A stretch of DNA of 37,838 bases. Origin: an archaeon (GTDB lineage: Archaea > Thermoplasmatota > Thermoplasmata > JAJSAE01). The notes below the pieces were generated by a model, which made no database searches, was not told the origin of the DNA, and saw only the letters and a list, made by a program, of their open reading frames with translations. Below, in pieces: positions 1 through 33,873 of the stretch. The position numbers and the translations under genes were made by a program. How positions within the stretch are numbered: the stretch's first letter is position 1; each line of letters starts with the position of its first letter. The DNA lies in contig JAJSAE010000093.1 of NCBI GenBank assembly GCA_024281315.1, forward strand, positions 1-37,838, written 5' to 3'.

Positions 1-3000
1 GTCATTTATCCAGACATTTGCTGCGTTTACCGATGCAGTATTGTTATACCATATCGTATAGGTCAGATTTGTACCGGGTAAGGCATGAGCCGCACTTACC
101 ATCTTTAGAGTGGTCAGAGCGGTTATCTCGGTGCTCACACTGTCGGAAAGACTCTCATACCCGTACTCGAGATAAACATAGTTGATGAGAATGTCTCCTT
201 CTGACGCACTATTACTAACCTGCACCGTTATAGTGAGAACATAATCTCCGGGCCCGACATTAACAAAGTGCCATGTAGTTCCGGTCCGGTTCCCTTCCGA
301 ACTGCTGTTCACAAAGGTCACATCAGACGGCAGGGTATCGTTTATCCAGACATCATCCGCAATACCGTGGCCGGTGTTATTATAGTAAATCGTGTAGTTG
401 AGGAACATCCCCGGACTCGCAACCGCATGGTCCACCGTCTTAATCAGATTAAACACAGGCCTTATTATATGGGTGACAGCGGTATCATTACCTCCGTAGT
501 ATGTAGTGAAGGGAGTGGTATAATTTGACTCCGCCGCATTCACAAGGTCCACATTGTCAGGAGTGGTCGAGAGCACGCGTACCGTTATGGTAAGGGTGTG
601 GGAACCGGGAGCAACATTCGTAAAGTGCCAGATATAAAGATTACCTGTGCGGCTCTCGTATGGCTGACTTGAGGAAAGATATGGTGCCTCAGGAGGTAGA
701 GTATCGTTTATCCATAAATCGGAAGCGATGCCGCTACCGGTATTATCGAATGTTATGGTGTAAACAAGCGTATCGCCGGGATATGCAGTAACAAGGTCAA
801 CACTCTTCTGAATAGATATAATAGGCCGTGTGACGATTGTTGATGCGGAGTCCGAACTCGGCACCATTGGCAGGCCGTTCTGGGCCGAATATTCGCATGT
901 AACCTCATTGACAAGGGCCGTTCCGTCATCCATATCTCCAACACTAACCGTTACGGTAAAGCTGTGAGGGCCGGGAGCAACAGCAGTAAAGTGCCACGAC
1001 ATTCCGGTTCTTGCTCCTTCCTCACTGCTTGTCACAAAAGTAACACCCGCGGGAAGTGTGTCATTTATCCACACATCTCCCGCCACACCGGTTCCGGTAT
1101 TGTTATAGTACAGAGTATAAACCAGAGTGCCGCCGGGATAAACCGTTGCCAGGTCCACAACCTTTGAAACCGTTATACTCGGTGCGTTCACCAGAGTGTT
1201 TGCGGAATCGTTCGATTCTTCCAGTGATACACCGGCAGTGGTAGTATAATTAAGGAATACCCAATTTGTAAGAGATGCGGATTGGGTGTCAGCTGGAATA
1301 TGCACCGTGATTGTAAGCGCATGAAGGCCGGGGGAAACATCCGTAAGGTGCCACACATAATCGGCAATCCTGTGCGGCTCGTCGCTACTGGTTACGAATG
1401 TAAGACCTGCGGGAAGAGTATCGTTTATCCATATGTCGCCCGCACTGGCATGACCGGTGTTGTTGTAATATATCGTGTAGTTAAGGTAATCTCCAGGACT
1501 TGCTGTACTCATGTTAACTACCTTCTCCACGGAAATCATCGGACGATACACCAGCGTGCTCGCACTATCCGTACTCCTCGGGCCGTTCAGACCAGTGTTC
1601 ACAAGATAGTCAAGAGAAGCCGTATTGACAAGGGTGGTGTTGTCCGCAATAGATGAGTCTATAACAGCGGTGAAGTAGAAACTGTGAAGCCCGGGAACAA
1701 TATTGTTGAAGACAAACTGTCCGGGGCTTACCATTGTTCCGCCGGCATCCGTATAATTGCCGGATAATGGTGTTAGGCCTGAAGGCAGGGTATCGTTTAT
1801 CCAGACCGTAGTAGCGACTCCCGACCCAGTGTTATTGAAATAGATGGTATAATTAAGGACATCCCCTACTGTTGCAACGGATAGATCCACCTGCTTCACA
1901 ATCTCTATAACTGGCGAAATTACAGTGGTAAGAGCCTGTGCATCGGTTCTACCATAAGAATTGCCGGCATAACTTGAATACTCACATATCACATCGTTAA
2001 TCAAAGCATCTCCGTCCAGAGCAGTGGCGGGGACCGTGAAGTTAACTGTAATATAATGACTGCCAACAGGAACATCGGTAAAGTGCCACAAAAGAACTGT
2101 AGAATCAGGAAGCGTATCATTTATCCACACATCTGCCGCAGAGAGGTTGCCTGTATTATTGTAATAGATAGTGTATGTCAGAACATCGCCAGGATACGCA
2201 GTTGTCGAACTGACAATCTTCTCAACTGTTATAATCGGCCGCACAATGGTAAATGTAGCGGTGTCGCTGGAATCCGTATTTATAAGGGGCTGGTGAGCAC
2301 TTCCCGTGTAGTTGCAGATTGCCGTGTTGGTCACTGAAACATTATCAACATTGGCAGTTACGAAAGCATAAACCTGGAAGGAATGACTTCCGGGTGTCAC
2401 ATCCGCGAAGTGCCACAAATATGCACCCCCCGTTACAGTTGGCAAAACCCCGCTGGTATCGTTGTAGTATAATAGCTGTATCGGAAGAGTATCATTTATC
2501 CACACATCGCCCGCCGCCCTGCTGCCGGTATTGTCATAAGAAATAGTATAAGCGATAATATCGCCGGGCTCCGCCTGAGGTGTCGAAACTGTTTTCTGAA
2601 CGGTAATTAGAGCACGACCCACAGTGGTAATGGCATAATCCGAGGAAGAAGGCATGGAAACCCCGCCTGCAGATGTATAGTCGCATGTAACCGTATTATT
2701 CAGTACCGTGCCATCTGCAGCAGTAGCATTTATCTGGGCCGTAATCTGGAAACTATGGGAACCGACAAGCACATTTGTGAAATGCCATGAGTAAGTGCTA
2801 CCGGAAATTGCAGGGGTTATGCCGCTGGTATTTGAGAGATATACCAAACCAGCAGGCATGGTATCATTTATCCATGCATCCGCAGCTAGGTCACTCCCTG
2901 TGTTATTGAAGTATATGGTATATGTTAGAATATCGCCAGGCTCAGCAAACGCCGTATCAACCGTCTTTGAAACCGTTATGGCCGGCGCCCTTACCCATGA

Positions 3001-6000
3001 TGTTGCTTCTGAAGAAGACTGCTGCATGAGATTGTCGGAATCATCGGTATAATTGAGGAAGACGACATTCCTCAGTTCCTGAGCGGGGGATGCGCCTGCA
3101 TCCACCCTTACAGTTATGTTAAGTGTGTTCAGGCTGTTGGCAGAGACATTGGTAAAGTGCCACCTGTAAACCTGACCGATATTACTCTCCGGGGAAACCA
3201 GAGTTGAGTTATAATAAGAAGAGTTAACGATAAAGACAACTCCATCGGGGAGCGTATCGTTTATCCACACATGGTTGGCCACAACATCCGCCGTGTTGTT
3301 GAAGTATATCGTGTAGTTGAGATATTCTCCGGCACTCACATAGGTTCTGTCGACAACCTTCGAAACAACGATTGCAGAAACGATGCTTTCTGCATAATCT
3401 GACTCACTGCCAACCTGCACGCCGTTTCCCGCAGTATAGTTGAGTACAACGGTATTGTTGAGCACGGTTCCGGAAGGGGTTCCTGAATTGACAAGTACAG
3501 TTATGTTAAAGGAATGCAAACCATTTGCAACTGCAGTGAAATTCCAGAAGTATGTGCTTCCTGAAGTGCTGTAAGTTGTTCCGCTGTCATCAGACTGGTA
3601 TGCCACATCAGCAGGCATGGTATCCATGACCATAACGGTTTGAGCGGAATCTCCGGTATTGTTAAATGAGATTGTATAAATCAGAAGAGCCCCTGGACTT
3701 ACAACGCCCTTATCAACGGTCTTATCAACCGATATAATGGGTCTGTGGATTGTGGTTGATGCGGTGTCAGAGCCGCCATCCCATACAACTCCGTTTGTGG
3801 AAGTATAGATAAGGCTCGCATTATTGGTAAGAACCGTCCCGTCATCCACGGACATATCAACCGTGCAGTTAATGAATAGTGTATTGGTGCTCAGGGCCGC
3901 AACGGTCAGATTCCAGAAATAAGTGAGACCGGACTGGCCAGTGGGCACAATTGAAGAGTTTCTGAAGGTTACACCCGCCGGAAGGAAATCAGTTATATCC
4001 ACATCCGCAGGAGAATGGCCGGTATTGTCGTACGAGATAATATATGTGAGGACATCTCCGGGATACGCATCCGTAAGGCTGACATCCTTGGTAACTGATA
4101 TTATCGGCCGGACCACAACGGTATGAGCCGTGTCGGAAGTTGTTGGATAAGAGTGGCCCCACTGGTCCACCACATCCGAGGTCACACTGTTTGTCAGGGA
4201 TTGCCCGTCGATTGCAGTGAGGTTCACGGAAACGGTAATGTTGAAACCGTGAATGCCGGGTGCGACATTGGTGAAATGCCAGGAGTATGTGGTGCCGCTT
4301 ACATTATGCGAAAGAGTGCTGTCATCGGATTGATATGCCACTCCATACGAAAGAGTATCGTTTATCCAGACATCTGAAGCAATATTGGTCCCTGTATTGT
4401 TGAAATAGATTGTATAGACCAGATTGTCTCCCGGTATGACATACTGCCTGTCAACAATCTTCTCCACCACAATATCGGGAATCGTAACCAGAGTGCTGGC
4501 CGTGTCGCTGGAGCCGGGATACTCGTGGCCGTTATCGGCGGTGTAATTAAGGGTAACATTGTTCACGAGGGTGTAGTTGTCCGGTGCGTTCAGATTCACC
4601 TGAACGGTAATTACGAAGGAGTGAGGGCCGGGCGCAACATCGCCGAAGACATACTGGTATGTGCTGCCGCTCTGGAAAGGAGTCTGGCCGCTGGTATCAT
4701 TGACATATGTAACATAATCCGGCAGCGTATCGTTAATCCAGACGGAAGATGCGTTTGCGGAACCGGTGTTATTAAAGAAGATCGTGTAATTGAGGTACTG
4801 CCCCTGACCTACCGTAAGGTGATCAACAACCTTTTGAACCTGTGTAACGGAAGATAAGACCTGTGTAACGGCGGTATCGTTTCCTCCGCTGTAGGGGGTC
4901 CCGCTGAGCTGTGCCGTGTAATTCATGAAGGCCGTGTTATTGAGCCATGTGCCATTGACAACAGAATCCAACACCCTGGCCCTCACGGTAATCTGGTTAT
5001 CCGAATAACCGGATGCCGTCAGATTGAAGTAGAGGGTCTGACCCGAAACCCCGGATGCGGACGAGTCAATATAGGTAACTCCGACCGGCAGAACATCGGT
5101 TATATTGACGGCGCATGAATCACTGCCGCTGTTGTTATAATAGAGAGTATAGGTTAATATGTCTCCTTGAAGTGCCGTGCTTCTGTCAACTGTTTTGGAG
5201 ACGCTCACAATCGGAATGCTGACAACCGTATCCGCAGAGTCGTTGTTATGCCATGAGTAACCGTTAGCCACCTCATAGTCAAGGGAAACATTGTTTATCA
5301 GATGTTCCCCGTCCGTAGCAGAAGGCATGACCTGAACGCTAACCCAGAACCAGTGCACACCCGGTGCGACATCTGTGAAATGCCAGGTATAGGTAGGCCA
5401 GACTCCCGTATATGTGCTGGCATTAGTATCATTGAAAGAAACATCTGTGGGGAATGTATCATTTATCCAGACATGTGTCGCATTCGTACTGCCGGTATTG
5501 TTGTAGTATATGGTGTAGTTGAGGGTGGTGTTATGGCCGGCCACAGGTGCGGAAACCGTTTTTATAACGATTATTTCAGGCGATGATATAAGCGTGTCGG
5601 CAGTATCGGAAACGGTCCATGTGTAGCCATTCAATACGGAGTAATCGAGAGCCACGGAGTTCGTAAGAAGGGCCCCATCGTAAACCGTATCATTAACGCG
5701 AACGGTAACGGTTATCTGGTAGTTTCCCGGAGCGAGATTGGAGTAATACCAGACATAATCGCCTATCCTGTTGGTCTCGTCGCTACTGTTAAGGAATGTC
5801 AATCCGTCCGGAATGATGTCCGTTATCCATACGGAAGAGGCATAAGCGCTCCCCGTATTATTGAAGTAGATAACATAGGAATAGGTATCGTTGACAAGAG
5901 CATTTGCAGGGCCGACTTTCTCCACGGAGATAATCGGGCGCTGGATAAGGGTGGTCGCGTTATCGCTCACCTGCGGCATGGGAATTCCATCAACGGATGC

Positions 6001-6305
6001 ATAATCACATGTAACATTATTAACAAGAATGGTTCCGTCCGAGGTTGTATCGTTAACTCTCACTGAGATGGTGAAGTTGTAGTTTCCCCTCTGAACATTG
6101 GAGAAATGCCAGTAGTAGGTCAGTCCGATGTTAGTATCGGGAGTTACGCTGGAACCCATGAATTCAACGCCTGCCGGAAGGGTGTCATTTATCCAGACAT
6201 CACCGGCAGTCCCCCCTCCGTTATCGTACTCAATGGTATAGGTGAGGAAGTCCATAGGATTTGCGACCAGCCGATCCACACTCTTATCAAGAGTTATGTG
6301 GGGCG
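1..6305 (-). repeat. Tandem DUF11 repeat array, 17 complete copies plus one cut by the window edge
   Basis: On the minus strand a recurring core reading Y-T-I-x-Y-x-N-T-G...V-W-I-N-D-T-L-P recurs about every 323-388 bases (108-129 residues). The WINDT-equivalent sites begin near 1, 331, 703, 1058, 1419, 1789, 2112, 2487, 2859, 3247, 3618, 3985, 4348, 4724, 5089, 5453, 5812 and 6179. Each copy continues with a WHFTNVxPGxHxFTITVxV-like strand and a VNNVTxxY segment, which is the DUF11 conserved repeat pattern. Copies are diverged in DNA, so this is an old array rather than a recent expansion. The copies at 3618, 3985 and 5089 have lost the WIND core. Confidence 0.9.
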
Positions 6306-9300
6306 CCTCCAGAGTGACATTGCACATTGAGCCGCCGTTGGCAGGAATGATGACCGTGCTGTTCGCACCGTGTTCGTTACCGGATGTAGCCTCCACGAGC
6401 ACATCTTCGCCGCCCTCATAGTAGGTCAGGTCAACCTGATATCTCCCGAGGGAGTCGCTGACCTGATAGAAGGAGTAGTTAAATCCGCCGGCAGTGTAAT
6501 TCACCCACACATCCGCACCGGGAACAACAGTATGGTTAAGACGGAGAATATATCCGTATATGGGATAGGGGTCGTTAACCGCAGTCGCATTGAGAATCAC
6601 AGGGTCCGGCTGGGAAGCATAGGTTCCCGTGTTGGTCCCGGCCAGGTCGTACGGAGTTCCGTCCTTTGCAGTAATATAGTAGGAAATGGTGTAATTCCCG
6701 CCTGCAGGATCAAGTTTAATATACCCTCTCCACGAGCCGTTAAGCCTGTCTCCGGCCGTGAGGTTCATGGGGATGTCATAATAGGAAGTGTCGTTCCAGT
6801 TCTTATAATGCAGAGTTACCGAATCAACATAGACATTATCGCTCACCTGCGCATCAACTCTCAGAAGGGTCCCGGATTCGTTAGTCATGTTGCTGTGAAG
6901 AATTGTCGGGGGCGTGTAGTCGGCGGTGACCTGTTCTTCGAGGGAGTAGGCAATTTCTTTTCCGGGCCATTCCGTCGCGGAAATCAGGTATCTGTAGGTC
7001 GTCCCGTTGACCGCAGATGTATCGTTATAATAATTATTCGTTGTTTGGCCGATATAAGCGGTAGTATAGGCATAGTTCGCCTGCTGGCCAGCGCGTGTAA
7101 AATATGAGGTGCGATATATTCTGTAAGCATAGGCGGTACTGCTGCTTTCCCAAGTGAGATTTACGGCATTCCCATTCTGACCAAGATTAACTGCGGAGAA
7201 GTTCACGGCAGCGGTCGGATTATCTCCTGCAAAAGTCCTGTTCATCGTAACATTTGCCTTCGGGAAATCACTTAGAGTGGTGTCCGCTTCGCCGTAATTG
7301 ACACCGTCCGTAGCAAAGAGATGGATGTTATCCCCGCTGACGCCGTACAGATCAATTCTGTAGTTGCTGTCGGCACCGGCAAGCGTATTGTTCCATGTGG
7401 TGTTCGTAGAGAGATCACTTGTTCTCAGATTTTTAGCCACGACAATCGCGCCTGTCACGGGAGTTACACCATCGGCCGCAAACACATAGCCTCTGAGAAG
7501 GCCGTCCGGCGGCGGGTCCGCCCTTGTGCCTCCGGTGTATGCTTCCATATCAAAGGATGAATCCGAGGTGTCGCCCATTCCGTTCCAGTTGACATAATGA
7601 ACATATACATCCGCAACATCGGCAGAGGTCATGCCCAGTTCCGCAAGAGAAAGCCCAACCTCGGTTCTGTTCATGTTGGAAGCCGCCGAAATCGTTCCGG
7701 AATTTGTCCAAGACCACAGACTCGGGTCCGAGCCGGTAAATTGCATGAGGGTTCGTGAGGTCAGGGTTCCGTATATGCCGGATAGCTTAATCATGTAATC
7801 CGCGCCGATGCCGCCGATTGTATATCCGGTTGACACATTCCTGTCAGAATCAATAAAGAACATCATGCTGCTCTCGCCCGTAATTTCCTCTTTTGGAACC
7901 CGCTGGAGTGCCGCATCCCGAGGCGCTTTGAAATTAAAGTTAGATACCTGTGTTTGAGGGGCAGGTTCTGCTGTATCCTTGGTAGTAGAACGGGTGACCG
8001 GGGGCACATAGGGAGTATTTACTTCCGGTACGGAGGTCCCGTGGAATATATCCGCGGTAACTCCCGCATAAAGGAAGGCACTGCCGCCCTGATTCACTGC
8101 GCTGTATGATGTCAGGTCCATATAAAGGGCTTCGGGAGATGTGGCCGGTGTTCCGTCCTTGTTCTGAGTATCGCTGGCCGGCTCATGTATAAGAGGAGCA
8201 AAAGCCCAATCCGAGAAGCCCCCGTCCACCACCATACCGGTCGGTGCCTCCAGAACATAGAAGTTCATCACATCCGAGAGTTCCGGATAAGCTATACCCG
8301 GGCTTGCAGCCGCCGAAGCAAGGCGCAGGCCGATGGTTTGTCCTCTCTCGGATTGAGGTGTATCAAGAGTTACAGAGAGATGAAGCGTGGAATTCGCCTC
8401 TATATTCAACGGCGGGTTAAGACGGACCGTTATGCCGTCGCCGTCAACAACACCAGTTCCTATTGACTGACCGTCCCTGAGAACGCCGAGAGAAAAGGCA
8501 GCCATGTCAGCGGTGCCAGTGGTTGTAAAATGAAGAGATGAAAGACTGGATGGGAATGAAAGTGTGGTGACGGCAAGGTCAAGAACGGTATTCTGCGCGC
8601 CCGTAATTACCTGAGTTGGATGAGCGACAGAGGATTCTATGTACATTGACCCACCGACATTACTTACCGCATAATCGGAGTGGTCCTGATTGCCCTGCGT
8701 GTCGGATGTGAAAAACATCACGGAAACCATGGGGGTTTCGTTGAGTTGAAGAAATTCCAGAGACATCCTGACCTCCATCTCAGAGCCTAAGGAATATGGG
8801 GTGGCAATCACGCCTGCACTCTCGAAACCGGCCCAATCGTAGTGATTATTTCCGTTAAAGGCATAAACGGATGTTCCGGTAACCGAGCCATCGTGACCGT
8901 CCACTTTTATCATGTAATCCGCACCGAAGTTCATCAAGGCATACCCTGTGCTGGAATCACTATCGGTGTCAATAAATATTCTTGTAACATCTCCTCGTTG
9001 GTCTCCGAACTGCGAACCGGTTACTCGCGTGTAGAAGTAAATGTTCCGAAAGTCGCTGACAACCTTCGTTTCCTCTATATTCACATTAGGGTTATACGGC
9101 TCGTCCGTAAGAGAATCATGATAAGAGGTTATGTTCTGCCAATCTCCGAACTGGCCGTCGGGAGATATTATTTCTCTGGGGGCCTGCGGAATGGGCATCA
9201 GGAACGGAATTGCAGCGGATAATAAGAGGACAAACACAAGGCCGATAACGGCATATGTGCTCCAGTCAAAGGTTTTCGGCGGATATCTCACCTTCAGCGG

Positions 9301-11025
9301 CTTTGGTTCCTCTATTTCTTCCTCCTCGGGTTCCGAAACTTCAGCTTTCAATATATCCACAAAGAATACATTGCCGCATACATTGCAGCGCGCAAGCCCG
9401 CTATCACTGACATCAAAGTCACTCTCTCCACAAACGGGACAGGAAATCTCCGCTTCCGTAACCGCGAACACATTGCCGCAATCGTCACATATCGCAAGAC
9501 CTTCATCATTAACATGATAGTTTCCAGAACCGCAGGCAGGACAGGAGACCAGGCCCTTCTCGGCAGTTTCCTCCGTAATCTCCTCCTGAACTTCTTCCTC
9601 TTCTTCAATTTCTTGTTCTGGTTCGAGATCAACCTCTTCTTCCACTTCCTCCGATTCCAATTCAATTGCATTGATATCAAGTTTTTCAAGAGGCGCAAAA
9701 CATATTCTGCATGTGCTGGAATCGGGCTGATTGAGACCCCCGCAAGAGGGACATCTGACCATAGTCGTAAGGTCGGTCCAGCAGTTCTTGCACATGACAT
9801 CATCTTCCACTATAGGCGAGCCGCATACCGGACATATTAGCCCGGAAGATTTGACTGCAGCCGCTTCCTGCGGTGAAGTTGATTCATCCCGGGGGACTTC
9901 ATCGGGTTCTTCACCACCCGTCTCCGCTTCCACAACTTTCTCGGCCTTCTTTTCGGGTGCGCCATTCAACTCGCCACCACAGACAAGACAAACAGAGGAG
10001 CCAATCGGATTATGAGCGCCGCAAACAGGACATTCCATTTCATCTCCGTTGAACTTTTCTCCACATACTGAACATATCTTCACATCAATCGGCACATCCG
10101 CGCCGCAGAATTCACACACCTTCAATTCCTGTTCCTCTTTATCTTCCTCGTCCTCAACATCCTCAGAAACCTCAGATGAAGCTTCCGGAGGTTCTTCTTC
10201 GATAATAAGGTCTTCCTCGTCCGAGTCCTCCTCATGAGTTTCTTCAGGCATCTCTTCATCCATAACAACATTCTCGTCAATAATATCTTCCGCCAGAATA
10301 TCCTGAGGTTCAGCCGCATCAGAGGGGGGTTCCTCATCATCAGACTCTTCCTCGGAAGCCTTAACAGGAGCTGCCTCATCTTCCACAAGCATCCCCTCTA
10401 TTAACTCCGACTGCGTATCCGCATCACTTTCCTCCTCATTCGAAATTTCCTCCTGCAATTGTTCAGGTTCTTCGGACTCAACGGCAGAGAGAGCGGAATC
10501 CTTGCCCATCGAAAGAAGTTCTGCTCCACATATAGCACACTCGGTACTGCCCGGCGGGTTAGATGCCCCACATATTGGGCACTCGGTGTCCTTTTTCGTT
10601 TGGTCGAGAAGGGGCTCCTCCGCAGGCGTTTCGGCTTCAACAGGCACATCCGGTTCAATATCTGATGCCTTATCAACATCCTCCGAAAAACTCTCCGTAA
10701 CAGGTATTTCCGCACCGCAAATCAGACATTCGCTAGTGCCTGCGGGATTTTCCGCACCGCATACAGGGCATTCAACAGAATTGTTCTCATTCAAATTAAT
10801 CTCCTCCTCGATTTCATCCGAAACAGGTGTATCTTCGGAATTTATCTCTTCTTCCGGCTCAACATCGTCAAGATTGTTACCTTCTTCATGGGGGATTTCC
10901 GCGCCACACACGCGGCATTCCACCGCTCCGACCTCATTCAATGCCCCACAAACAGGGCATTCTACCTCTGAAGCGACAGTTTTTTTCTCATTCCCATCTC
11001 CGGCATCACTGCGTCGTTTACTCAT
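1..11025 (-). CDS. Giant membrane-spanning protein: nine N-terminal zinc ribbons, one TM segment, external DUF11 repeat array (partial, runs off left edge)
   Basis: The frame is open from ATG at 11025 to base 1 (3675 codons, no stop), so the C terminus is missing. An in-frame TAG lies about ten codons upstream. Residues 22-551 hold nine paired CxxC motifs (about 22-45, 84-107, 146-168, 302-325, 331-352, 396-416, 422-446, 493-518, 528-551), most like CPVCG...CxICG, separated by Glu/Asp-rich linkers. A basic stretch (KPLKVRYPPK) precedes a TM segment at about 588-612, which predicts an N-in, C-out protein. Outside are two CBM9/DOMON-like domains (about 616-790 and 932-1162; both carry an IDxDxxxSTGY...GADYMIK pattern), a carboxypeptidase-regulatory-like domain (1176-1246), an Fn3-like domain (1266-1360), an Ig-like domain (1369-1475), a second regulatory-like domain (1482-1572), then DUF11 repeats from about 1574 onward. 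Only a weak SD is visible. The function is unknown; I infer a cell-surface stalk or adhesin, perhaps signalling through the zinc-ribbon tail. Confidence 0.9.
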   Translation of the reverse strand, partial: MSKRRSDAGDGNEKKTVASEVECPVCGALNEVGAVECRVCGAEIPHEEGNNLDDVEPEEEINSEDTPVSDEIEEEINLNENNSVECPVCGAENPAGTSECLICGAEIPVTESFSEDVDKASDIEPDVPVEAETPAEEPLLDQTKKDTECPICGASNPPGSTECAICGAELLSMGKDSALSAVESEEPEQLQEEISNEEESDADTQSELIEGMLVEDEAAPVKASEEESDDEEPPSDAAEPQDILAEDIIDENVVMDEEMPEETHEEDSDEEDLIIEEEPPEASSEVSEDVEDEEDKEEQELKVCEFCGADVPIDVKICSVCGEKFNGDEMECPVCGAHNPIGSSVCLVCGGELNGAPEKKAEKVVEAETGGEEPDEVPRDESTSPQEAAAVKSSGLICPVCGSPIVEDDVMCKNCWTDLTTMVRCPSCGGLNQPDSSTCRICFAPLEKLDINAIELESEEVEEEVDLEPEQEIEEEEEVQEEITEETAEKGLVSCPACGSGNYHVNDEGLAICDDCGNVFAVTEAEISCPVCGESDFDVSDSGLARCNVCGNVFFVDILKAEVSEPEEEEIEEPKPLKVRYPPKTFDWSTYAVIGLVFVLLLSAAIPFLMPIPQAPREIISPDGQFGDWQNITSYHDSLTDEPYNPNVNIEETKVVSDFRNIYFYTRVTGSQFGDQRGDVTRIFIDTDSDSSTGYALMNFGADYMIKVDGHDGSVTGTSVYAFNGNNHYDWAGFESAGVIATPYSLGSEMEVRMSLEFLQLNETPMVSVMFFTSDTQGNQDHSDYAVSNVGGSMYIESSVAHPTQVITGAQNTVLDLAVTTLSFPSSLSSLHFTTTGTADMAAFSLGVLRDGQSIGTGVVDGDGITVRLNPPLNIEANSTLHLSVTLDTPQSERGQTIGLRLASAAASPGIAYPELSDVMNFYVLEAPTGMVVDGGFSDWAFAPLIHEPASDTQNKDGTPATSPEALYMDLTSYSAVNQGGSAFLYAGVTADIFHGTSVPEVNTPYVPPVTRSTTKDTAEPAPQTQVSNFNFKAPRDAALQRVPKEEITGESSMMFFIDSDRNVSTGYTIGGIGADYMIKLSGIYGTLTSRTLMQFTGSDPSLWSWTNSGTISAASNMNRTEVGLSLAELGMTSADVADVYVHYVNWNGMGDTSDSSFDMEAYTGGTRADPPPDGLLRGYVFAADGVTPVTGAIVVAKNLRTSDLSTNTTWNNTLAGADSNYRIDLYGVSGDNIHLFATDGVNYGEADTTLSDFPKANVTMNRTFAGDNPTAAVNFSAVNLGQNGNAVNLTWESSSTAYAYRIYRTSYFTRAGQQANYAYTTAYIGQTTNNYYNDTSAVNGTTYRYLISATEWPGKEIAYSLEEQVTADYTPPTILHSNMTNESGTLLRVDAQVSDNVYVDSVTLHYKNWNDTSYYDIPMNLTAGDRLNGSWRGYIKLDPAGGNYTISYYITAKDGTPYDLAGTNTGTYASQPDPVILNATAVNDPYPIYGYILRLNHTVVPGADVWVNYTAGGFNYSFYQVSDSLGRYQVDLTYYEGGEDVLVEATSGNEHGANSTVIIPANGGSMCNVTLEAPHITLDKSVDRLVANPMDFLTYTIEYDNGGGTAGDVWINDTLPAGVEFMGSSVTPDTNIGLTYYWHFSNVQRGNYNFTISVRVNDTTSDGTILVNNVTCDYASVDGIPMPQVSDNATTLIQRPIISVEKVGPANALVNDTYSYVIYFNNTGSAYASSVWITDIIPDGLTFLNSSDETNRIGDYVWYYSNLAPGNYQITVTVRVNDTVYDGALLTNSVALDYSVLNGYTWTVSDTADTLISSPEIIVIKTVSAPVAGHNTTLNYTIYYNNTGSTNATHVWINDTFPTDVSFNDTNASTYTGVWPTYTWHFTDVAPGVHWFWVSVQVMPSATDGEHLINNVSLDYEVANGYSWHNNDSADTVVSIPIVSVSKTVDRSTALQGDILTYTLYYNNSGSDSCAVNITDVLPVGVTYIDSSASGVSGQTLYFNLTASGYSDNQITVRARVLDSVVNGTWLNNTAFMNYTAQLSGTPYSGGNDTAVTQVLSSVTQVQKVVDHLTVGQGQYLNYTIFFNNTGSANASSVWINDTLPDYVTYVNDTSGQTPFQSGSTYQYVFGDVAPGPHSFVITVQVNLNAPDNYTLVNNVTLNYTADNGHEYPGSSDTASTLVTIPDIVVEKIVDRQYVIPGDNLVYTIYFNNTGTNIASDVWINDTLSYGVAYQSDDSTLSHNVSGTTYSWHFTNVAPGIHGFNITVSVNLTAIDGQSLTNSVTSDVVDQWGHSYPTTSDTAHTVVVRPIISVTKDVSLTDAYPGDVLTYIISYDNTGHSPADVDITDFLPAGVTFRNSSIVPTGQSGLTYFWNLTVAALSTNTLFINCTVDMSVDDGTVLTNNASLIYTSTNGVVWDGGSDTASTTIHRPIISVDKTVDKGVVSPGALLIYTISFNNTGDSAQTVMVMDTMPADVAYQSDDSGTTYSTSGSTYFWNFTAVANGLHSFNITVLVNSGTPSGTVLNNTVVLNYTAGNGVQVGSESDYAESIVSAIVVSKVVDRTYVSAGEYLNYTIYFNNTADVVANHVWINDTLPDGVVFIVNSSYYNSTLVSPESNIGQVYRWHFTNVSANSLNTLNITVRVDAGASPAQELRNVVFLNYTDDSDNLMQQSSSEATSWVRAPAITVSKTVDTAFAEPGDILTYTIYFNNTGSDLAADAWINDTMPAGLVYLSNTSGITPAISGSTYSWHFTNVLVGSHSFQITAQINATAADGTVLNNTVTCDYTSAGGVSMPSSSDYAITTVGRALITVQKTVSTPQAEPGDIIAYTISYDNTGSRAAGDVWINDTLPIQLLYYNDTSGVLPTVTGGAYLWHFADVTPGSHSFQVYAFVTANVDNVSVTNTAICNYTGSAHQPLINTDSSDTATFTIVRPIITVEKIVSSTTAYPGDVLTYTIYYNNTGNLSAADVWINDTLPDSTVLLWHFTDVPVGSHYITVNFTVPATALDGDALINDVICEYSSYAGNSYGRTDAQALTTVISPVIEIVKQVDLSVATVGDVLNYTIYFNNTGSGVATTVWINDTLPSGLTPLSGNYTDAGGTMVSPGQFVFNNIVPGLHSFYFTAVIDSSIADNTTLVNTASLDYLVNTGLNGPRSTDSASTLVYRPMISVEKVVNMSTASPGDYLNYTIYYNNTGHASAGDIWINDTLPAGLTFVTSSDEPHRIADYVWHLTDVSPGLHALTITVHIPADTQSASLTNWVFLNYTTTAGVSLEESNDSANTLVNAPSITVSKVVDLATVYPGGTLVYTLYYNNTGTGVAGDVWINDTLPAGVTFVTSSEEGARTGMSWHFTAVAPGPHSFTVTVSVGDMDDGTALVNEVTCEYSAQNGLPMVPSSDSASTIVTRPIISIQKSVDLVTAYPGDTLVYTITFDNTGSGIASDLWINDTLPPEAPYLSSSQPYESRTGNLYIWHFTNVAPGSHTLTITVRVLSTTPDNVDLVNAAESNYTTPFTTYYGGNDTAVTHIIRPVFNLIKTVDHAVASPGMFLNYTIYYNNTGHGIADDVWINDTLPSDVTFVNSSSEGNRTGTTWHFVNVGPGDYVLTITVQVSNSASEGDILINYVYLEYGYESLSDSVSTEITALTTLKMVSAAHALPGTNLTYTIWYNNTASVNAANVWIND

Positions 11026-11067: not shown

Positions 11068-11081
11068 CCGGTATATTAAGG
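11068..11081 (-). promoter_or_regulatory. TATA-type promoter of the giant DUF11 protein
   Basis: The minus strand reads CCTTAATATACCGG, centred about 50 bases upstream of the ATG at 11025. This predicts transcription starting near 11050 and a leader of about 25 bases. It follows an oligo-T tract, so the giant gene may be transcribed separately from the two surface genes upstream. A second, weaker TATA-like string (GGGTATAGG) lies near 11056-11064. Confidence 0.55.
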
Positions 11082-11161: not shown

Positions 11162-14100
11162 TCAGTTCTGGACACTGTAGGTCATGGTTCCGCCAGCAGG
11201 GACATACAGCCAGAAGCCAGTCGCAGGAAGCATGATGCTAATCGCATAGTTCCGCGCATCCGTCGGCTGATTGAAGTTATAGACATATGTGTCATACTTC
11301 TGTGTTCCGACATCCCAGTAGGAGACATACCACGCAACGCCAGGCCACGGCTGACCGGGAGTTCCTGCGCTGTATGTCACATAGGAACCTGCGCCCGCAA
11401 CACCCGGATTGACATTGGCCTCAAAGTCGACCGCACCGTTTCCGGTGAAGTTGTGCGCTATGCCTATCATGTTCCAGCCGGCATAGAGATTCTTCGTAAA
11501 TGTTCCGGTGGTTGTCGTGTAGTTGTTACCCTGTATCTGGACAATTCCGAAGCCCTGATCCACATAGACCCAGTACGCCGAACCAACTGTTAGATTGAAA
11601 TCCACACCGCCACTTCCATAGATATAGGAATCATAGGTGCTTGGGGTAGAGCCGGTTCTGTTGGCAATGGTTATGTCGGTGAGGGTTACTCCCAGACCAG
11701 TAGCTACGCTGTCTATGATAGCGGTAATCTCCGAAGCGGAGTCACTCGAAGCAACTGGAACTACCGGTACCGAGCATATATGCCAGCCAGGTTGACTCAG
11801 ATCCCATGTGAACTGCAGCCCGGACACCTCAACGGTGATGTTGTCCCACCACTGACCTGCTTCCGGATAGATAGCGGGCGGGGTAAGGTCATTTCCGATA
11901 TCCGTTATGTTCAGATAGTGGAAGCCAACTGTTATCAGGGTAACCTGTCCTGCCGATGCCTGACCGTCTCCGACCGCTCCGCCGACACCGTCAAATACAA
12001 GGTCTGCCGGAAGAACTACACTGGGATCCGTATCGTTCGTCGTGATGTTAACGGTTCCGTAGTAACCGGGTGCAATCACGCCGTTCGCATCGTATATGGT
12101 GTACTGCACATTGAAACCGGTGCCGCTTGATTCCAGAGGATAGAACGGCGGATTTGTCGGGTCGGTAAAGTTCAATCTGGACGGGATACCGAAGGTCACA
12201 TTGACCATGGAACCACCGTTTGCCGCAACGATTGTTGTGGTGTTGATGTTGTACCTTGCCGCAAGGCCGGTATCGGACGCATTCACAGTAATAGTGCCGC
12301 CATCGGTATAGTTGTTCAGGTCTACCTGATATCTTCCGAGGGAGTCGGTGGTAACGGTTAAGGTGTCCGTAGCGCCGGACGACGAGTTAACCCACGAGAC
12401 ATCCACATTTGCAAAGTTGTATGCGGCACCGTCGCAGAGCAGCGGGTTATATACACCAGCGTTTCCGTTATACAGATATACATACCCATAGACCGGGTAC
12501 GGATCTGCAAGAGATGTGGCGGAGGCAGTTATCGTATAGATAGGTCCGGTTGCAGCATTGGGAATGACATCCGAGGCATCGACATAGTAGCTGATTGTAG
12601 TGCCGTCAGCCTGAGCGGGTATGGCACCATACCATCTGCCGCCGACATACTTCACTGTGTTGAATGCGCCATTGCTGTCGTATGTCATTGCAACGGTATA
12701 TGTGTTGGTCCAGCTGTCGTTGGTCCACGACATTATAACGGTTGTGTTGTCGATATCGCTCGTATAGTTCGCATCATCGATGTCAACATACACATCTATG
12801 GCCTGTTCAGCTGCAACGGTCGCGCCATCACTGGGCAGAACATACGCAAATGTCGGAGCGCTGGTATCCTGCTCCGCATAGCTTACGGAAGCGGAGCCTA
12901 TGTTACCATCACTGCCAAAGACAAACACGGTGTATGTACCGGTTGCCCAGTAATCTGTGTCATAGGTTACAGTAACATTCTCTATAGGCGAATCAAATGT
13001 GCCGTCATCCGCAGCCAGAGAGACATTATCATACACTACTGCGCCGCTCGGGGCAATCACGGTATATGTCGCACTGACTATGTTGGAGCCGCCGGTTGTG
13101 GAATCATCAACGGTTGCTGTAACCGTCTGGATTGCACCGCCCTCGAGTGGGGCAATAACGCTGTTTATCGTAACCACAGGCGACAGGGAATCTGCAGCTG
13201 TTGTAAAGCTCCATGTGTATGCGGTCTGAGCGTTGCCGGCAACATCCTGTGCGGCATCAACGGTAAGAGTAACACTGTCACCGAGAGCCCAATCCGCATG
13301 AGTCCATGTGAATGTATCATTAGCAACATTGGTTGTGCTCCATACACCTGCTGTGTATGTTACAACGGTACCAGCAGTCTGTGTGAGAGTCGGTGTAACG
13401 GTTGTATCCATGCTCTCTCCAAACACAACAACCACATCGGTTGTAACCGCAACGCCTGTAGCCGCATCGGCCGGTGTTGTGCTGGTCACGGTCGGGGCTG
13501 TGCCGTCATAGATATAGGGTGTCGCTTCCGGTGCATCGCCGCTAACTGGAGCGACCTCGCCATCAGCAACAGCTGTCCAGCCATAGGTGCCGTCTGCCGG
13601 TATGGTCCACGCATAAGAACCGTCTATGGTCGCATCGCTGCCGATAAGGGTCCAGGTCGTACCGCCATCGGTGGTATAGTACAGGTCAACGGATGTTGTG
13701 CCCGTGTCATTGGTGTATGTGATGGTTATACTGGCAACATTGGATGATGATGCGGTGGTGGGTCCAGTCGCTGTCGCATTATGAGCTGTGACAAGGGGAT
13801 ACTCATCCGTGAGTATTACACCACTAGTCACGGCACCGCCGGAAACGGTATCGGAATATGTGTTGTTATACCACATATCCGCCGGGGGTGCTATTCCGCC
13901 GCCGTCATCCCAATAGCCCCAGATGTCCACACTATACACATCGCCATCCGCGACAGTATAATATGTATTAGTGGAACTGTTGAAAGCGTTGTCACCGGTA
14001 AACCCGACATAGCCGTTCCCCGCATCATCCAGAAGACTCATGGGGTAACAGACCGTCCCGGGACCGGTTATATTCAGAATATAAAGCATATAATTCTGAA

Positions 14101-14608
14101 TTGTAGTGGTGGGTCTGTCCTGAGGCTGATAGGACGGATCTGGATTTGCTGCGGAAGCGGTTCCCGTGTTCATGGTTGATGCGCTTGCGGTGGTGGTTGC
14201 GTCAGGATAGTATATAAAATCCGTAGGGGTTGCGGGGTCGCTCAACTTCAGCCTCCAATAATAGGTGGTTATTGGATTCAATAGGTTGCATGTAACCCTA
14301 TACGCACCACTGACGAGATTGTCTTGGGTGGTTGTATATACTCCCACATCTCCGGCACCGGGTGCGAAATCAGCGGTCGTACCGACCTCTACTTCCGCAT
14401 CCACAGCCATATTGGCCACGCCTGCTATAACAAACTGGGCAGGCCAAGGATCTGTAACCAGAGGCGGCCAGAGATATGTTACAGTAGGTACTGTAGCAGG
14501 CTCTGGGGCCTCCGTATTCGCTTTCGAAGGTGCGGGCATCGCTGCAAAGACGGTTAATACCATCAGTAGGGCGACGGCGAACACCATTATCTTCTTCATA
14601 TTGTTCAT
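11162..14608 (-). CDS. Secreted multi-domain surface protein (Big_5/SbsA-like, Ig-like, C-terminal GWN-type domain), 1148 aa
   Basis: The start at 14608 is supported by an SD (GGAGGAGAG) about six bases upstream. Residues 1 to about 30 are a signal peptide (MNNMKKIMVFAVALLMVL, then a small-residue cleavage region). Later come a module at about 274-366 (TATGPT...DGSYAWTIPADGTYGW), an SbsA/Big_5-like domain at about 370-470 (TSTTPADAATGVAV, GESMD), Ig-like domains to about 700, and a carboxypeptidase-regulatory-like domain at about 703-808 (ADPYPVYGYV...DSLGRYQVDL). The C-terminal region, about 933-1148, carries the GWHICSVP and AGWNMIGIA patterns seen in archaeal secreted proteins. No C-terminal anchor is visible, so the protein may be released or held by other envelope proteins. 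Several modules also occur in the two neighbouring genes. It is Thr, Val and Asp rich with many N-x-T sequons. The precise role is unknown. Confidence 0.9.
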   Translation of the reverse strand: MNNMKKIMVFAVALLMVLTVFAAMPAPSKANTEAPEPATVPTVTYLWPPLVTDPWPAQFVIAGVANMAVDAEVEVGTTADFAPGAGDVGVYTTTQDNLVSGAYRVTCNLLNPITTYYWRLKLSDPATPTDFIYYPDATTTASASTMNTGTASAANPDPSYQPQDRPTTTIQNYMLYILNITGPGTVCYPMSLLDDAGNGYVGFTGDNAFNSSTNTYYTVADGDVYSVDIWGYWDDGGGIAPPADMWYNNTYSDTVSGGAVTSGVILTDEYPLVTAHNATATGPTTASSSNVASITITYTNDTGTTSVDLYYTTDGGTTWTLIGSDATIDGSYAWTIPADGTYGWTAVADGEVAPVSGDAPEATPYIYDGTAPTVTSTTPADAATGVAVTTDVVVVFGESMDTTVTPTLTQTAGTVVTYTAGVWSTTNVANDTFTWTHADWALGDSVTLTVDAAQDVAGNAQTAYTWSFTTAADSLSPVVTINSVIAPLEGGAIQTVTATVDDSTTGGSNIVSATYTVIAPSGAVVYDNVSLAADDGTFDSPIENVTVTYDTDYWATGTYTVFVFGSDGNIGSASVSYAEQDTSAPTFAYVLPSDGATVAAEQAIDVYVDIDDANYTSDIDNTTVIMSWTNDSWTNTYTVAMTYDSNGAFNTVKYVGGRWYGAIPAQADGTTISYYVDASDVIPNAATGPIYTITASATSLADPYPVYGYVYLYNGNAGVYNPLLCDGAAYNFANVDVSWVNSSSGATDTLTVTTDSLGRYQVDLNNYTDGGTITVNASDTGLAARYNINTTTIVAANGGSMVNVTFGIPSRLNFTDPTNPPFYPLESSGTGFNVQYTIYDANGVIAPGYYGTVNITTNDTDPSVVLPADLVFDGVGGAVGDGQASAGQVTLITVGFHYLNITDIGNDLTPPAIYPEAGQWWDNITVEVSGLQFTWDLSQPGWHICSVPVVPVASSDSASEITAIIDSVATGLGVTLTDITIANRTGSTPSTYDSYIYGSGGVDFNLTVGSAYWVYVDQGFGIVQIQGNNYTTTTGTFTKNLYAGWNMIGIAHNFTGNGAVDFEANVNPGVAGAGSYVTYSAGTPGQPWPGVAWYVSYWDVGTQKYDTYVYNFNQPTDARNYAISIMLPATGFWLYVPAGGTMTYSVQN

Positions 14609-14685: not shown

Positions 14686-17610
14686 TTATGACGGCGTATA
14701 TGCCGCAGGCGGGGTTGCGATAGACCCAGCGGTGATGAACACCATGTAGCCCTCATACTGTTCGAGAGTGAAATCATTGGTCCAACCAAACGGCCCAGGA
14801 GTTGCTGTAATCCAGCCTTGACCCGTCGGGTCGTACCGAGAGATAGACTCCACGGTTCCAGAAGCAAGCCCCAATTGTGTCTCTATGTCCGAGGCGAGAG
14901 TGGAAGCGGTCGTCAGCGTGGAGAATATCGGCACACCGATCAGTGTTCCCTGATTATACAAGTTCACGGTCACAGCAGTGCTGAGAGGCGTTCCCTGAGG
15001 GGTGTAATATGCAGGCGGGGTTGCTATGGTGCCGGCTGTGATGAAGATCATATAGCCCTCTCCGTTCACCAGAGAGAAATCGTTAGTCCAGCCGAAGGGA
15101 CCAGGAGTTGCTGTAATCCAGCCTTGACCTGTCGGGTCATAGCGAGAAATGGACTCCACGGTTCCGGTAGCAAAGCCCAGCTGTGTTTCTATATCTGCTG
15201 CAAGAGTTGAAGCGGTCCAAGCAAGTGCAGTAATGTCTGTTGTAAAGGTCACCAGATTGTTCTGATTGTAGAGGGGCCACTGAACCGCGGTTGCGGCGGA
15301 GGCATCATAAGGTCCGGCTTCTGCGGCATCTCCACTCGCCGGTGCAACATCGTCCGTTGCATTAGCAAACCAGTAGTATGTGCCTGCAGCAGGGACCGTG
15401 AAGGCAAACGAGCCGTCAACGGTAGTATCAACGCCGGCCTGTACCCATGTCGCATTGCTGTCATTGGAATACCAGATAGTTACTGCGGCAGGTGTGCCTG
15501 TGTATGTGTAGGTTATCGTGACATCAAGGCCGCCGCTTCCTGTTGGTCCCGTTGCTGTTGCAGTGTATGCAACGGTGGTGAAGTTAAAGGTAATATCACC
15601 ACTAAGTGCGTTACCGGCTAGGTCAACAAAGCCGCCGCCGGTCAGGTCCACTGTATACAGAGTGTTACTGGTTAGAGCCGTATAGGTTGCATTATACCAC
15701 AGTCCATCAGCGCTCCAGCTCCATGTGGCACCGGGTAGGGTTGTGGTCACGGTAACCGCCGCGGCTGTATCCATCGTCTCGCTGAACTGGATGGAATATG
15801 TTCCGGCAGCGGTAGCCACATCAACAGCGCCATCTACGGGTGTCGTGCTTATCACTGTGGGTGCGGTTGTGTCAACTATTGTGGTTGCATCGTAAGCCGC
15901 AGGATCCGCTTCAACATTGCTAGCATTATCGGTGGCAACGCTGTAGAAGTAGTATGTGCCATCCGCAGGTGCGGTGAAGCTATAGCTCCAGGTTGTACCG
16001 CTGACATAGGTCATGGCAACAGAGTTGGTATAGGGAATGCTATCTACAGTGTCCCAATAAAGTGTAACACTGGCGACACCGCTGGTAGCATCGGTTGCGG
16101 TTGCGGTCACTGTGAATGTCAAAGCGGTCTCGTAAGCAGGCAGTGCATCCACACTTGAAGTGGGAAGACTCGTATCTATCGTTGTAGTTGCGTCATAAGC
16201 CGCCGGGTCCGCCTCAACATTGGTAGCGTTATCCGTGGCAATGGTGTAGAAGTAGTATGTGCTGCCGTCCGTACCGGTGAAACTGTAGGTCCAGCTCGTG
16301 CCCCCTGCATAAGTCATGGCAGCCGAGCTGGTATAGGGTATCGGTGTGGCGCTGGTTGACCAGTAGAGTGTGACGCCAGCCAAGCCGCTGCCCACATCGC
16401 TTGCCGTTGCTGAGACAGTAAATGTAGTGGACGATTCATAAGTGGGGAGTGCATCGGCACTCGAAACCGGCGCTGTTGCGTCTATCGTTGTAGTTGCGTC
16501 ATAGGCGGCAGGGTCAGCTTCGACATTACCGGCAACATCGGTTGCAACGGTGTAGAAGTAGTATGTCGTGCCATCGGTTCCAGTGAAATCATAGGTCCAA
16601 CTGCTACCTGTGACATTGTCGCCACTGACATAGGTCATTGCGACAGAGTTACCGTATGGTATGCTATCGACCGTATCCCAGTAGAGCGTAACACTCGCAA
16701 CACCGGTGGCGTTTCCGCTGGTGTTATCGTCGCTTGCTGTTGCGGTCACGGTAAATGTGGTTGATGTCTCATAGGTAGGAAGCGCATCGACACTTGAAGT
16801 CGGTGCAATCCTATCCGTTGCTGTTCCAACCACAAAATCAACGGAGCAGTCATTCGTATCCTGACCAACCGGACTCCTGTATATCTCCTGACCAAGGCCA
16901 GGCGCAACTGCGTCGCCCATTATCGTGTTGTCCGGGATGATGCTCTGTGTGCCGAACTCCACCCTGTCCACAATCTTTCCGGTGGTGGTGAAATTCAGTT
17001 TAACCTCATCGCCGCCGGTGTTAAAGTAGGTGGATGTAAGTTCCACATAGGCGAAATCACCGGCCGCTACCGTTCCGCTCAGAGCAACGACGGAGGACAC
17101 ATATTGGCTATCGTCTTTCTCGAGCTGATAGGTAGAGAGATCAACGGCGGCCGTGGTCGGGTTGTATATATAAAGATACTGGTTTGCGTTCCCGTCGTTG
17201 GGCTGCGTCACAATCCTATCTATCTTCAGCATATCTGGCTGTGTCGTATCAACAGTAAGATCACCTGTTATGTTGCTGCCGGATATGAATACATCGGTCT
17301 CAGCGGCAAAAGAGTCGCCAATCATGTATGTAATCACATCTCCATTCAGACCACCTTCTTTAATAGTGGTGGTATCTACATCGTCACCGCTAACATCGAT
17401 AACGAAGTTCCCAGAGGCGTCACTGGTATTCGAACCGTATTGAACGCCATCTATCCACGCAGTAACCACTGTGTTTGCTGTTGTTGTTCCTGTCCTCTCA
17501 AAAGGCTGTATAGGCACGGCACTCGTAAGAGGCGTAAAAAGCATCGTAAGCATCAACACTACGATTACTACGCTCGCTCCCATATTCATTTTCTTCTTCA
17601 TTTCGTTCAT
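14686..17610 (-). CDS. Secreted surface protein with lamin-tail-like domain, three tandem Ig-like copies and a duplicated C-terminal domain, 974 aa
   Basis: The first ATG of the frame (17628) lies within the SD itself (GGAGGAGGAG), so the start is taken at 17610 (MNEMKKKMNMGAS), followed by a hydrophobic signal segment ending near SAVP. Residues about 128-217 resemble a lamin-tail domain (QYLYIYNPTTAAVDLSTYQL). Three Ig-like copies of about 105 residues span about 267-580, each with a DALPxYExxxTFTV start and a YYFYxxATD...NVEADPAAYDAT end. An SbsA/Big_5-like domain (580-675; FSETMD), a TATGPT module (675-770), and two near-identical C-terminal domains (775-875 and 875-974) follow. There is no C-terminal membrane anchor. 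It is the first gene of the left surface block; 77 bases separate it from the next gene, without a clear promoter, so the two are probably co-transcribed. Confidence 0.9.
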   Translation of the reverse strand: MNEMKKKMNMGASVVIVVLMLTMLFTPLTSAVPIQPFERTGTTTANTVVTAWIDGVQYGSNTSDASGNFVIDVSGDDVDTTTIKEGGLNGDVITYMIGDSFAAETDVFISGSNITGDLTVDTTQPDMLKIDRIVTQPNDGNANQYLYIYNPTTAAVDLSTYQLEKDDSQYVSSVVALSGTVAAGDFAYVELTSTYFNTGGDEVKLNFTTTGKIVDRVEFGTQSIIPDNTIMGDAVAPGLGQEIYRSPVGQDTNDCSVDFVVGTATDRIAPTSSVDALPTYETSTTFTVTATASDDNTSGNATGVASVTLYWDTVDSIPYGNSVAMTYVSGDNVTGSSWTYDFTGTDGTTYYFYTVATDVAGNVEADPAAYDATTTIDATAPVSSADALPTYESSTTFTVSATASDVGSGLAGVTLYWSTSATPIPYTSSAAMTYAGGTSWTYSFTGTDGSTYYFYTIATDNATNVEADPAAYDATTTIDTSLPTSSVDALPAYETALTFTVTATATDATSGVASVTLYWDTVDSIPYTNSVAMTYVSGTTWSYSFTAPADGTYYFYSVATDNASNVEADPAAYDATTIVDTTAPTVISTTPVDGAVDVATAAGTYSIQFSETMDTAAAVTVTTTLPGATWSWSADGLWYNATYTALTSNTLYTVDLTGGGFVDLAGNALSGDITFNFTTVAYTATATGPTGSGGLDVTITYTYTGTPAAVTIWYSNDSNATWVQAGVDTTVDGSFAFTVPAAGTYYWFANATDDVAPASGDAAEAGPYDASAATAVQWPLYNQNNLVTFTTDITALAWTASTLAADIETQLGFATGTVESISRYDPTGQGWITATPGPFGWTNDFSLVNGEGYMIFITAGTIATPPAYYTPQGTPLSTAVTVNLYNQGTLIGVPIFSTLTTASTLASDIETQLGLASGTVESISRYDPTGQGWITATPGPFGWTNDFTLEQYEGYMVFITAGSIATPPAAYTPS
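14690..15260 (-). repeat. Direct duplication encoding the two C-terminal domains of the 974-aa surface protein
   Basis: The stretches around 14760-14870 and 15080-15190 are nearly identical in DNA. Both encode a run starting TVESISRYDPTGQGW and ending FGWTNDF, flanked by ADIETQLG before and GEGYM/YEGYM with IFITAG/VFITAG after. The high DNA identity, compared with the diverged Ig copies upstream, points to a recent duplication or gene conversion. Confidence 0.85.
15870..16810 (-). repeat. Three tandem Ig-like domain repeats in the 974-aa surface protein
   Basis: Three copies of about 300-330 bases start near 16810, 16480 and 16170 on the minus strand. Each encodes SSxDALPxYExxxTFTV, then SVTLYW or GVTLYW, then YYFYxxATD and EADPAAYDATT. 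The first copy has a longer internal loop (DDNTSGNATGV). Confidence 0.85.
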
Positions 17611-17625
17611 ATTATTCTCCTCCTC

Positions 17626-17640
17626 CATGTTTTAAACATG
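17626..17640. repeat. Short palindrome just upstream of the SD of the 974-aa surface gene
   Basis: CATGTTTTAAACATG is a seven-base perfect inverted repeat around one central base. It sits in the predicted leader, directly before the GGAGGAGGAG SD on the minus strand, and could form a small hairpin near the ribosome-binding site. Confidence 0.5.
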
Positions 17641-17790: not shown

Positions 17791-18660
17791 CTATTCGCTG
17801 ACATCGGAAAGAAATGCGGTTAAGTCCCTGGAGATAGCCGGAGCCACGGAAATGGCCGACCTCTTGCTCTCCAGAGTGTCGCACGAGTAAACGGCATTGC
17901 AAACTCTGAGCCTCTCCATTGCGTTAGCGGAAAAGAGGCCGTGCGTGCACACAGCGATGACACTTGCCGCACCCTGAGACTTCAACTGCTCCGCCGCCGT
18001 GGCAATGGTTCCTCCGGTGGAGATTATGTCGTCCACTATGGCAACCTTCATACCGCTCACATCCAGGTTTTTAGGAGCAATCCGCACATTCGAGCCGTCG
18101 ATTCTGATCTTCTCCAGATGGTCCCACTGGCAGCCCACGACTTCCGCGGCAGTCTTTGCTCTCTCCACCGCTCCTTTATCCGGGGCAATCACCATCTCTA
18201 TCCCCTCCCGTTTGAGGAAGTTACCTATCTCATACATGCTGGACACATGAATAACAGGAACGCTGAAGTAGTCTATAAGCAGCTTGGAGTGCACATCCAC
18301 CAGAACAACGGCATCGCTCTGCATCTCTATCATTCTGGCCACCGCCCTTGCGCTCACAGCCTCCCCCTTCTGGAAGGGCCTATCCTGTCGCGCATACCCG
18401 TAATACGGCACCACGGTTATAATCCGGCGAACACCCATCTCCCTCAATGCATCCTGAATGAGAAGGAGTTCAACGAGTTTTTCATCGGGATGTGTGGTCT
18501 GTACGAGAACAACATCCTCGCCCTTCAGGTCATCCAGAATGCGGACATACGCATCCCCGTCGGGAAACCGTCTTATCTCTATCTGCGCGAGTTTTATCCC
18601 CATCTCCGCAGCCAGTGCGGCCGATAGGGCCTTTGATGCCGAGCCTCCTACTATAAACAT
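17791..18660 (-). CDS. prs: Ribose-phosphate pyrophosphokinase (PRPP synthetase), archaeal type
   Basis: The enzyme makes phosphoribosyl pyrophosphate from ribose 5-phosphate and ATP, the precursor of nucleotides, histidine and tryptophan, in the cytosol. The 289 residues match the usual archaeal length of about 285. RRFPDGDAYVRI near residue 30 and the PYYGYARQDRPFQKGEAVSA region at about 85-105 are the catalytic and ATP-binding loop. VDVHS near 140 and the PRPP-binding loop VAIVDDIISTGGTIA near 205-219 are intact. The start ATG at 18660 has an SD (AAGGTG) five bases upstream and a TATA box about 37 bases upstream. It diverges from herA. Confidence 0.97.
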   Translation of the reverse strand: MFIVGGSASKALSAALAAEMGIKLAQIEIRRFPDGDAYVRILDDLKGEDVVLVQTTHPDEKLVELLLIQDALREMGVRRIITVVPYYGYARQDRPFQKGEAVSARAVARMIEMQSDAVVLVDVHSKLLIDYFSVPVIHVSSMYEIGNFLKREGIEMVIAPDKGAVERAKTAAEVVGCQWDHLEKIRIDGSNVRIAPKNLDVSGMKVAIVDDIISTGGTIATAAEQLKSQGAASVIAVCTHGLFSANAMERLRVCNAVYSCDTLESKRSAISVAPAISRDLTAFLSDVSE

Positions 18661-27716: not shown

Positions 27717-27819
27717 GACTCACCTCGTCTTGGGATAAATTACTTATGTAAGTTCCGTTTTCGGAGGAGATAAAGAGCAGGTATTTATAGATATATCGGT
27801 GAGACAGGAGAATGAATGC

Positions 27820-33843: not shown

Positions 33844-33873
33844 CATCATAAATAAAAGAAAAAGGTGACAAAA

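Follow-up and report, generated by a model that had tools for sequence, protein, structure and literature searches.

The window, a contig of 37,838 nucleotides from a Thermoplasmata archaeon, carries on its minus strand a giant gene whose product is predicted to join nine cytosolic zinc ribbons through one membrane helix to two CBM9-like modules and a DUF11 array, in this order from the N terminus. The frame runs from 11025 to 1 without a stop codon anywhere in its 3675 codons, and the contig part alone includes more than 3,000 external residues beyond the helix. We lean towards reading the protein as a doubly membrane-attached stalk, probably stiffened by isopeptide bonds, with the zinc-ribbon head acting as a protein-docking platform in the cytosol. 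A TATA-like element upstream of the ATG is possibly the giant gene's own promoter. The gene and its parts are listed below.

11072..11079, minus strand: TATA-like TTAATATA, pattern only, beginning 54 nt upstream of the ATG
1..11025, minus strand: giant surface-protein gene, 3675 codons open in the contig, exits at base 1
10906..10959, minus strand: zinc ribbon 1, residues 23-40
10717..10770, minus strand: zinc ribbon 2, residues 86-103
10528..10581, minus strand: zinc ribbon 3, residues 149-166
10063..10116, minus strand: zinc ribbon 4, residues 304-321
9979..10032, minus strand: zinc ribbon 5, residues 332-349
9781..9834, minus strand: zinc ribbon 6, residues 398-415, conserved Trp directly after, kept in orthologues
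9700..9753, minus strand: zinc ribbon 7, residues 425-442, kept in orthologues
9478..9543, minus strand: zinc ribbon 8, residues 495-516, longer x14 loop
9376..9441, minus strand: zinc ribbon 9, residues 529-550, longer x14 loop, single ribbon here in orthologues
9199..9264, minus strand: the only membrane helix, residues 588-609, flanked N-terminally by basic residues
8626..9168, minus strand: CBM9/glucodextranase-C-like beta-sandwich 1, about residues 620-800, conserved family-wide
7561..8238, minus strand: CBM9-like module 2, about residues 930-1155, by signature only
1..6312, minus strand: DUF11 array, starting at residue 1572; K, D and N never vary among the 15 repeats aligned

The initial annotation had proposed a single gene for the zinc ribbons, the helix and the external repeats, a proposal that separate genes or an assembly break between the parts would undo, and had asked whether the fusion recurs in other archaea. 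Of the 400 genomes sampled from the class, eight show the fused architecture; these are the window's own and seven from three other families, which makes four families in all. When contigs were searched with nothing but the window sequence, no relative came up, and three orthologues then served as query. Uninterrupted orthologue frames are present in G011:C38 (5292 codons), G022:C27 (JACRNV010000037.1; 6792) and G041:C35 (6304), and the orthologues of G057 (JAGLQE010000046.1), G065, G087 and G108 are cut by contig ends. The orthologues show the same order of ribbons, helix, two CBM9-like modules and DUF11 array as the window. As the same fusion occurs in unbroken frames of other genomes and the gene order is conserved, head and stalk are, to judge from these sequences, one genuinely fused gene, which contradicts a division into separate genes. 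An assembly or frame artefact was rejected because other assemblies carry the same fusion uninterrupted, and the joining of two genes by a missed stop was rejected because the frame has no stop codon and the orthologues agree.

In the conserved order, prs and two genes for secreted proteins precede the giant gene, and one or two more genes for secreted proteins and then proS follow it. In the window, the part upstream of the giant consists of the following genes.

11162..14608, minus strand: secreted Big_5 protein, directly upstream of the giant, conserved neighbour
14686..17628, minus strand: secreted Big_5/LTD protein, conserved neighbour
17791..18660, minus strand: prs (ribose-phosphate pyrophosphokinase), flanking the locus in G041 too

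In G041, prs is followed by homologues of the 14686-17628 and 11162-14608 proteins, the giant, a homologue of C57:5132-8485 and proS, and G011 and G022 keep the same order from the two secreted genes through proS, with proS 56-58% identical. Elsewhere in the window, positions 33865-37551 at the contig's other end encode a secreted cadherin-like protein of 1228 residues (Cadherin_5/Big_9) with a signal peptide and a C-terminal transmembrane helix. Positions 27799-28626 encode an ABC transporter ATPase that has a RING/C1-like zinc module at its C terminus (Prok-RING_1, below cut-off at 24.1 bits), neighboured by FtsX-type permeases and a DUF1616 protein.

The 3' end of the gene, whose recovery had been suggested initially, lies very probably on contig C57 of the same genome. 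An open frame of 507 codons enters this contig (L056:8983-10503, minus strand), continues the DUF11 repeats and ends in IPEFSSMLVLLGVFLIVVVLHRRRKQN, and the module at its C terminus can be aligned to the last part of the G011, G022 and G041 proteins. No direct overlap was found between the ends of C57 and C79, the contig of the window, and the assignment is based on conserved gene order and homology. The place in the repeat where the sequence breaks off suggests a gap of about 50 residues or more between the two contigs, possibly with further repeats in it, and the complete protein would then have a length of about 4,200 residues or more.

In nearly every complete member of the family, the C-terminal tail consists of PEF or PEY, then a hydrophobic stretch and basic residues. 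Against the PEF-CTERM model TIGR03024 (cut-off 23), the tails of G011 (24.7 bits), G022 (27.5 bits) and L105 score above the cut-off, and those of G041 (17.5 bits) and of the window's own protein (11.8 bits) below it. The genome of the window contains two archaeosortase genes (C45:58957-59796 and C60:8744-9313; PF09721 above cut-off). The family is present in 57 of 64 genomes with a sortase versus 43 of 336 others, these being raw counts over 400 genomes, many of them incomplete, that ignore kinship. The PEF-CTERM-like tail is thus probably processed by archaeosortase, and would probably give the stalk a second membrane attachment point.

The initial annotation had the helix lead to a giant external DUF11 array. 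The long array is indeed present, but it starts only near residue 1572, behind the two CBM9-like modules. DUF11 (PF01345) scores 482 bits over about 17 stretches in the Pfam scan, and TIGR01451 counts 18. Lys10, Asp43 and Asn98 are invariant in 15 of 15 aligned repeats, and in the full set of 18 they are present in 18, 17 and 17 repeats, respectively. In addition, the isopeptide model TIGR04226 reaches 71.3 bits (cut-off 30), and the Lys and Asp align in PDB relatives. Each DUF11 domain is therefore probably stiffened by a Lys-Asn isopeptide bond. The first outer domain gave a structure model with a pLDDT of 88.4. Its top-ranking Foldseek matches are carbohydrate-binding proteins, among them CBM9 1i82, Sas6, glucodextranase 1ug9 and the Nxr subunit 7b04; 4jpq was also found. 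The E value is 6.5e-4, but the TM-scores are low, at 0.32-0.50. The likeness to CBM9, glucodextranase C-terminal and DOMON-like sandwiches (4jpq, 1i82, 1ug9, 7b04) appears at the level of the fold, and the domain has a signature of its own, DG.F..W ... D.D....TGY....G.GAD. The second module shares the signature of the first (DG.F.DW ... D.D....TGY....GAD). A Pfam scan of the window's copy gave no match, a weak match to Glucodextran_C appeared in 4 of 27 relatives, and a PDB sequence search with the core returned nothing useful.

The topology was predicted from several features. The sole strong hydrophobic stretch spans residues 588-612, as initially annotated, and two separate structure predictions place one helix at 588-609. 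The flank charges on the head side are +2, +1 and +4, versus -1 outside, and the head has no signal peptide at its N terminus. Within the head, N-x-S/T sequons occur once (shuffle mean 2.5), whereas the outer part has 116 against a mean of 50 (maximum 66 of 500 shuffles), and its non-repeat portion 24 against a mean of 12 (maximum 21 of 300 shuffles); part of the outer excess stems from conserved repeat motifs (NNTG, INDT). The same bias is seen in G011 (head 0, outer part 186 versus mean 83) and G022 (head 0, outer part 268 versus mean 98). Together with the cytosolic domain types predicted in the heads of paralogues, the missing signal peptide, basic head side and sequon bias provide good, albeit indirect, support for an N terminus inside and a stalk outside, and contradict the opposite orientation.

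The head itself confirms the nine CxxC...CxxC motifs with acidic linkers that had been noted in the first 551 residues. Residues 23-550 contain 18 CxxC motifs, which form nine pairs and hence nine ribbons, seven with CxxC-x10-CxxC spacing and ribbons 8 and 9 with x14, while the remaining 3,100 residues contain only 8 Cys; chance cannot produce nine ribbons followed by a Cys-poor region of 3,000 residues. The DZR profile (PF12773) passed its curated cut-off in the Pfam scan with 64.8 bits versus 27.3. Residues 1-580 carry a net charge of about -138 and 29% Asp plus Glu, with very acidic linkers and ribbons that are individually neutral to acidic; in the structure model, the ribbons have a pLDDT of about 70-86 and the linkers below 50. 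Nine ribbons are found in this genome only, orthologues with a complete head having 5-7, and the number varies in the region of ribbons 1-5. By comparison, a C..CW ribbon pair and the last ribbon before the helix are strictly kept across the four families. A PDB sequence search with the head returned only ribbons at chance level.

Zinc ribbons also occur in other membrane proteins. About 8 to 17 ribbons with acidic linkers were seen in L011:1781-4993 (C38), L009:3217-6984 (C45), L216:3072-7103 (G041:C14) and L215:5068-7713 (G011:C18), of which the G011 and G041 proteins have the C..CW ribbon pair in common with the window protein. Two proteins of mirror-image order, L010:1358-7834 (C44 of the window's own genome, G000) and L218:3-5075 (G018:C10), have CARDB repeats outside, one transmembrane helix near the end and three C-terminal cytosolic zinc ribbons. 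Such ribbon tails on unrelated CARDB stalks, with opposite polarity and in two genomes, suggest that a cytosolic ribbon domain on a stalk is useful in itself, and independently support the view that heads of this kind are under selection.

The window protein belongs to a wider family, which we defined by the helix and the first outer, CBM9-like domain (alignment A1, 27 rows). This core is present in 25 of 41 relatives and in 100 of the 400 genomes of the class; the largest genome, G025, has about 21 matches at E below 1e-10, and three or more additional copies lie in the genome of the window (C37, C1, C73), besides one on C54 that is cut at the helix. The named matches are MAGs of Thermoplasmata and Euryarchaeota. 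Among 25 heads scanned, 17 contain zinc ribbons, 11 TPR and 6 HHH_5, and single members carry SAP (L100:5648-6919), a winged HTH (L130:8804-9415) or a KaiC ATPase (L119:1719-3224), all predicted cytosolic domain types; some paralogues are without a ribbon. GLTNG-type repeats lie just inside the membrane in most paralogues and are absent from the window's orthologue group. These GLTNG or NGLTNG pentads before the transmembrane helix reach up to about 50 pattern matches (L098, L100, L101, L108, L115, L125 and others). Separately, L060:3690-8165 (G000:C98) encodes an isoleucyl-tRNA synthetase-like frame with C-terminal HhH, zinc ribbon, HhH, zinc ribbon and DUF835.

In the interpretation that we favour, the signal-anchor helix would insert the protein with its N terminus inside, so that the head stays in the cytosol. 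The two membrane-proximal CBM9-like modules would probably bind glycans or a glycosylated coat. A long stalk would be formed by some 18 or more DUF11 domains, each probably stiffened, and the PEF-CTERM-type tail would fasten its distal end to the membrane again. The ribbons, as beads on an acidic string, appear better suited to multivalent docking of a protein partner than to DNA binding, and through such docking something in the cell interior may anchor the stalk or set its position. The protein would work in adhesion or in the coat, within the surface-protein locus between prs and proS. The variable number of ribbons 1-5 counts against specific docking. The same variability (5-9), and the paralogues that have no ribbon, would fit a head that is inert ballast, its zinc knots and acidic linkers only fixing the orientation and resisting extraction of a heavily loaded stalk; since orientation would need only a positively charged flank, and the C..CW pair and last ribbon are strictly kept across four families, we regard this as decidedly improbable.

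The single-pass design and conserved head would also agree with an outside-in receptor, an idea raised in the initial annotation, in which binding to or pulling on the stalk alters the ribbon head and signals to a cytosolic partner, and the winged HTH, KaiC ATPase or TPR heads of paralogues resemble regulatory outputs. However, the Pfam scan of the window protein found no enzymatic or classical signalling domain, linkers modelled as disordered are poor at passing on a conformational change, and two membrane attachments would blunt tension, so that we consider a receptor unlikely. That the family heads hold DNA or RNA-protein complexes at the membrane seems quite unlikely to us, even though the HhH, SAP, winged-HTH and zinc-ribbon heads keep the idea open for the family and the ribbons match best, in structure, those found in TFS4, ribosomal proteins and RNA polymerase. 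These matches are weak, short and generic, the same Pfam scan found neither HhH nor SAP in the window head, and ribbons of neutral to acidic charge set in strongly acidic linkers (net charge about -140) argue against DNA or RNA binding by this member. Finally, nine potential zinc sites in one head might suggest a metal buffer or zinc sensor at the membrane. Structural ribbons usually hold zinc too tightly for sensing, and with a ribbon spacing of the structural kind and no metal transporter in the conserved locus, such a function is highly improbable.

Proteins with comparable ingredients are known. In Staphylococcus TcaA and Bacillus YvbJ and YdjG, the ribbons are predicted to be cytosolic, followed by one transmembrane helix and an outer part. 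They thus resemble the window protein in having N-terminal zinc ribbon(s), one membrane helix and an extracellular part, but differ in having one or two ribbons and small NTF2/TcaA-type outer domains, without DUF11, a CBM9-like core or a sorting tail. TcaA has been described as a zinc-ribbon protein (PMC10611510), and YdjG as two zinc ribbons plus a transmembrane helix (PMC11237479). Pfam and NCBIfam scans found no TcaA or NTF2-like outer domains in the window protein. With archaeal and bacterial DUF11 surface proteins (PF01345/TIGR01451) it shares the long array, the conserved Lys, Asp and Asn and secretion, whereas a cytosolic multi-zinc-ribbon head is not described for them in the open-access literature searched, in line with the initial annotation, which knew of no characterised example. 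Like PEF-CTERM archaeosortase substrates (TIGR03024), it has a P-E-F motif, a hydrophobic stretch, a basic end and an archaeosortase in the genome; in contrast to their cleaved signal peptide, it has an internal signal anchor preceded by a cytosolic head at the N-terminal end, and its tail scores below the TIGR03024 cut-off. Searches of the open-access literature turned up no described counterpart, either for this combination or for the family. Hence the ingredients are known, namely bacterial ribbon-transmembrane proteins and archaeal DUF11 and PEF-CTERM proteins, while the combination and the family are apparently undescribed, as far as such a search can indicate absence.

Little is known of how archaeal surface coats are attached to the inside of the cell. 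In the class sampled here, one genome in four carries stalks with defined cytosolic heads and sorting tails, and the window protein is in addition part of a conserved locus. It is tempting to speculate, if with considerable doubt, that a class-wide family of Thermoplasmata stalks with interchangeable heads (zinc ribbons, HhH, SAP, winged HTH, KaiC, TPR) forms a physical link between the coat and nucleic-acid or regulatory machinery inside the cell, with no separate signalling chain in between. The family makes both the inside partner and the attachment of the coat experimentally addressable, and its core provides a profile by which hundreds of giant surface proteins, at present matched by DUF11 alone or not at all, may be found and named.
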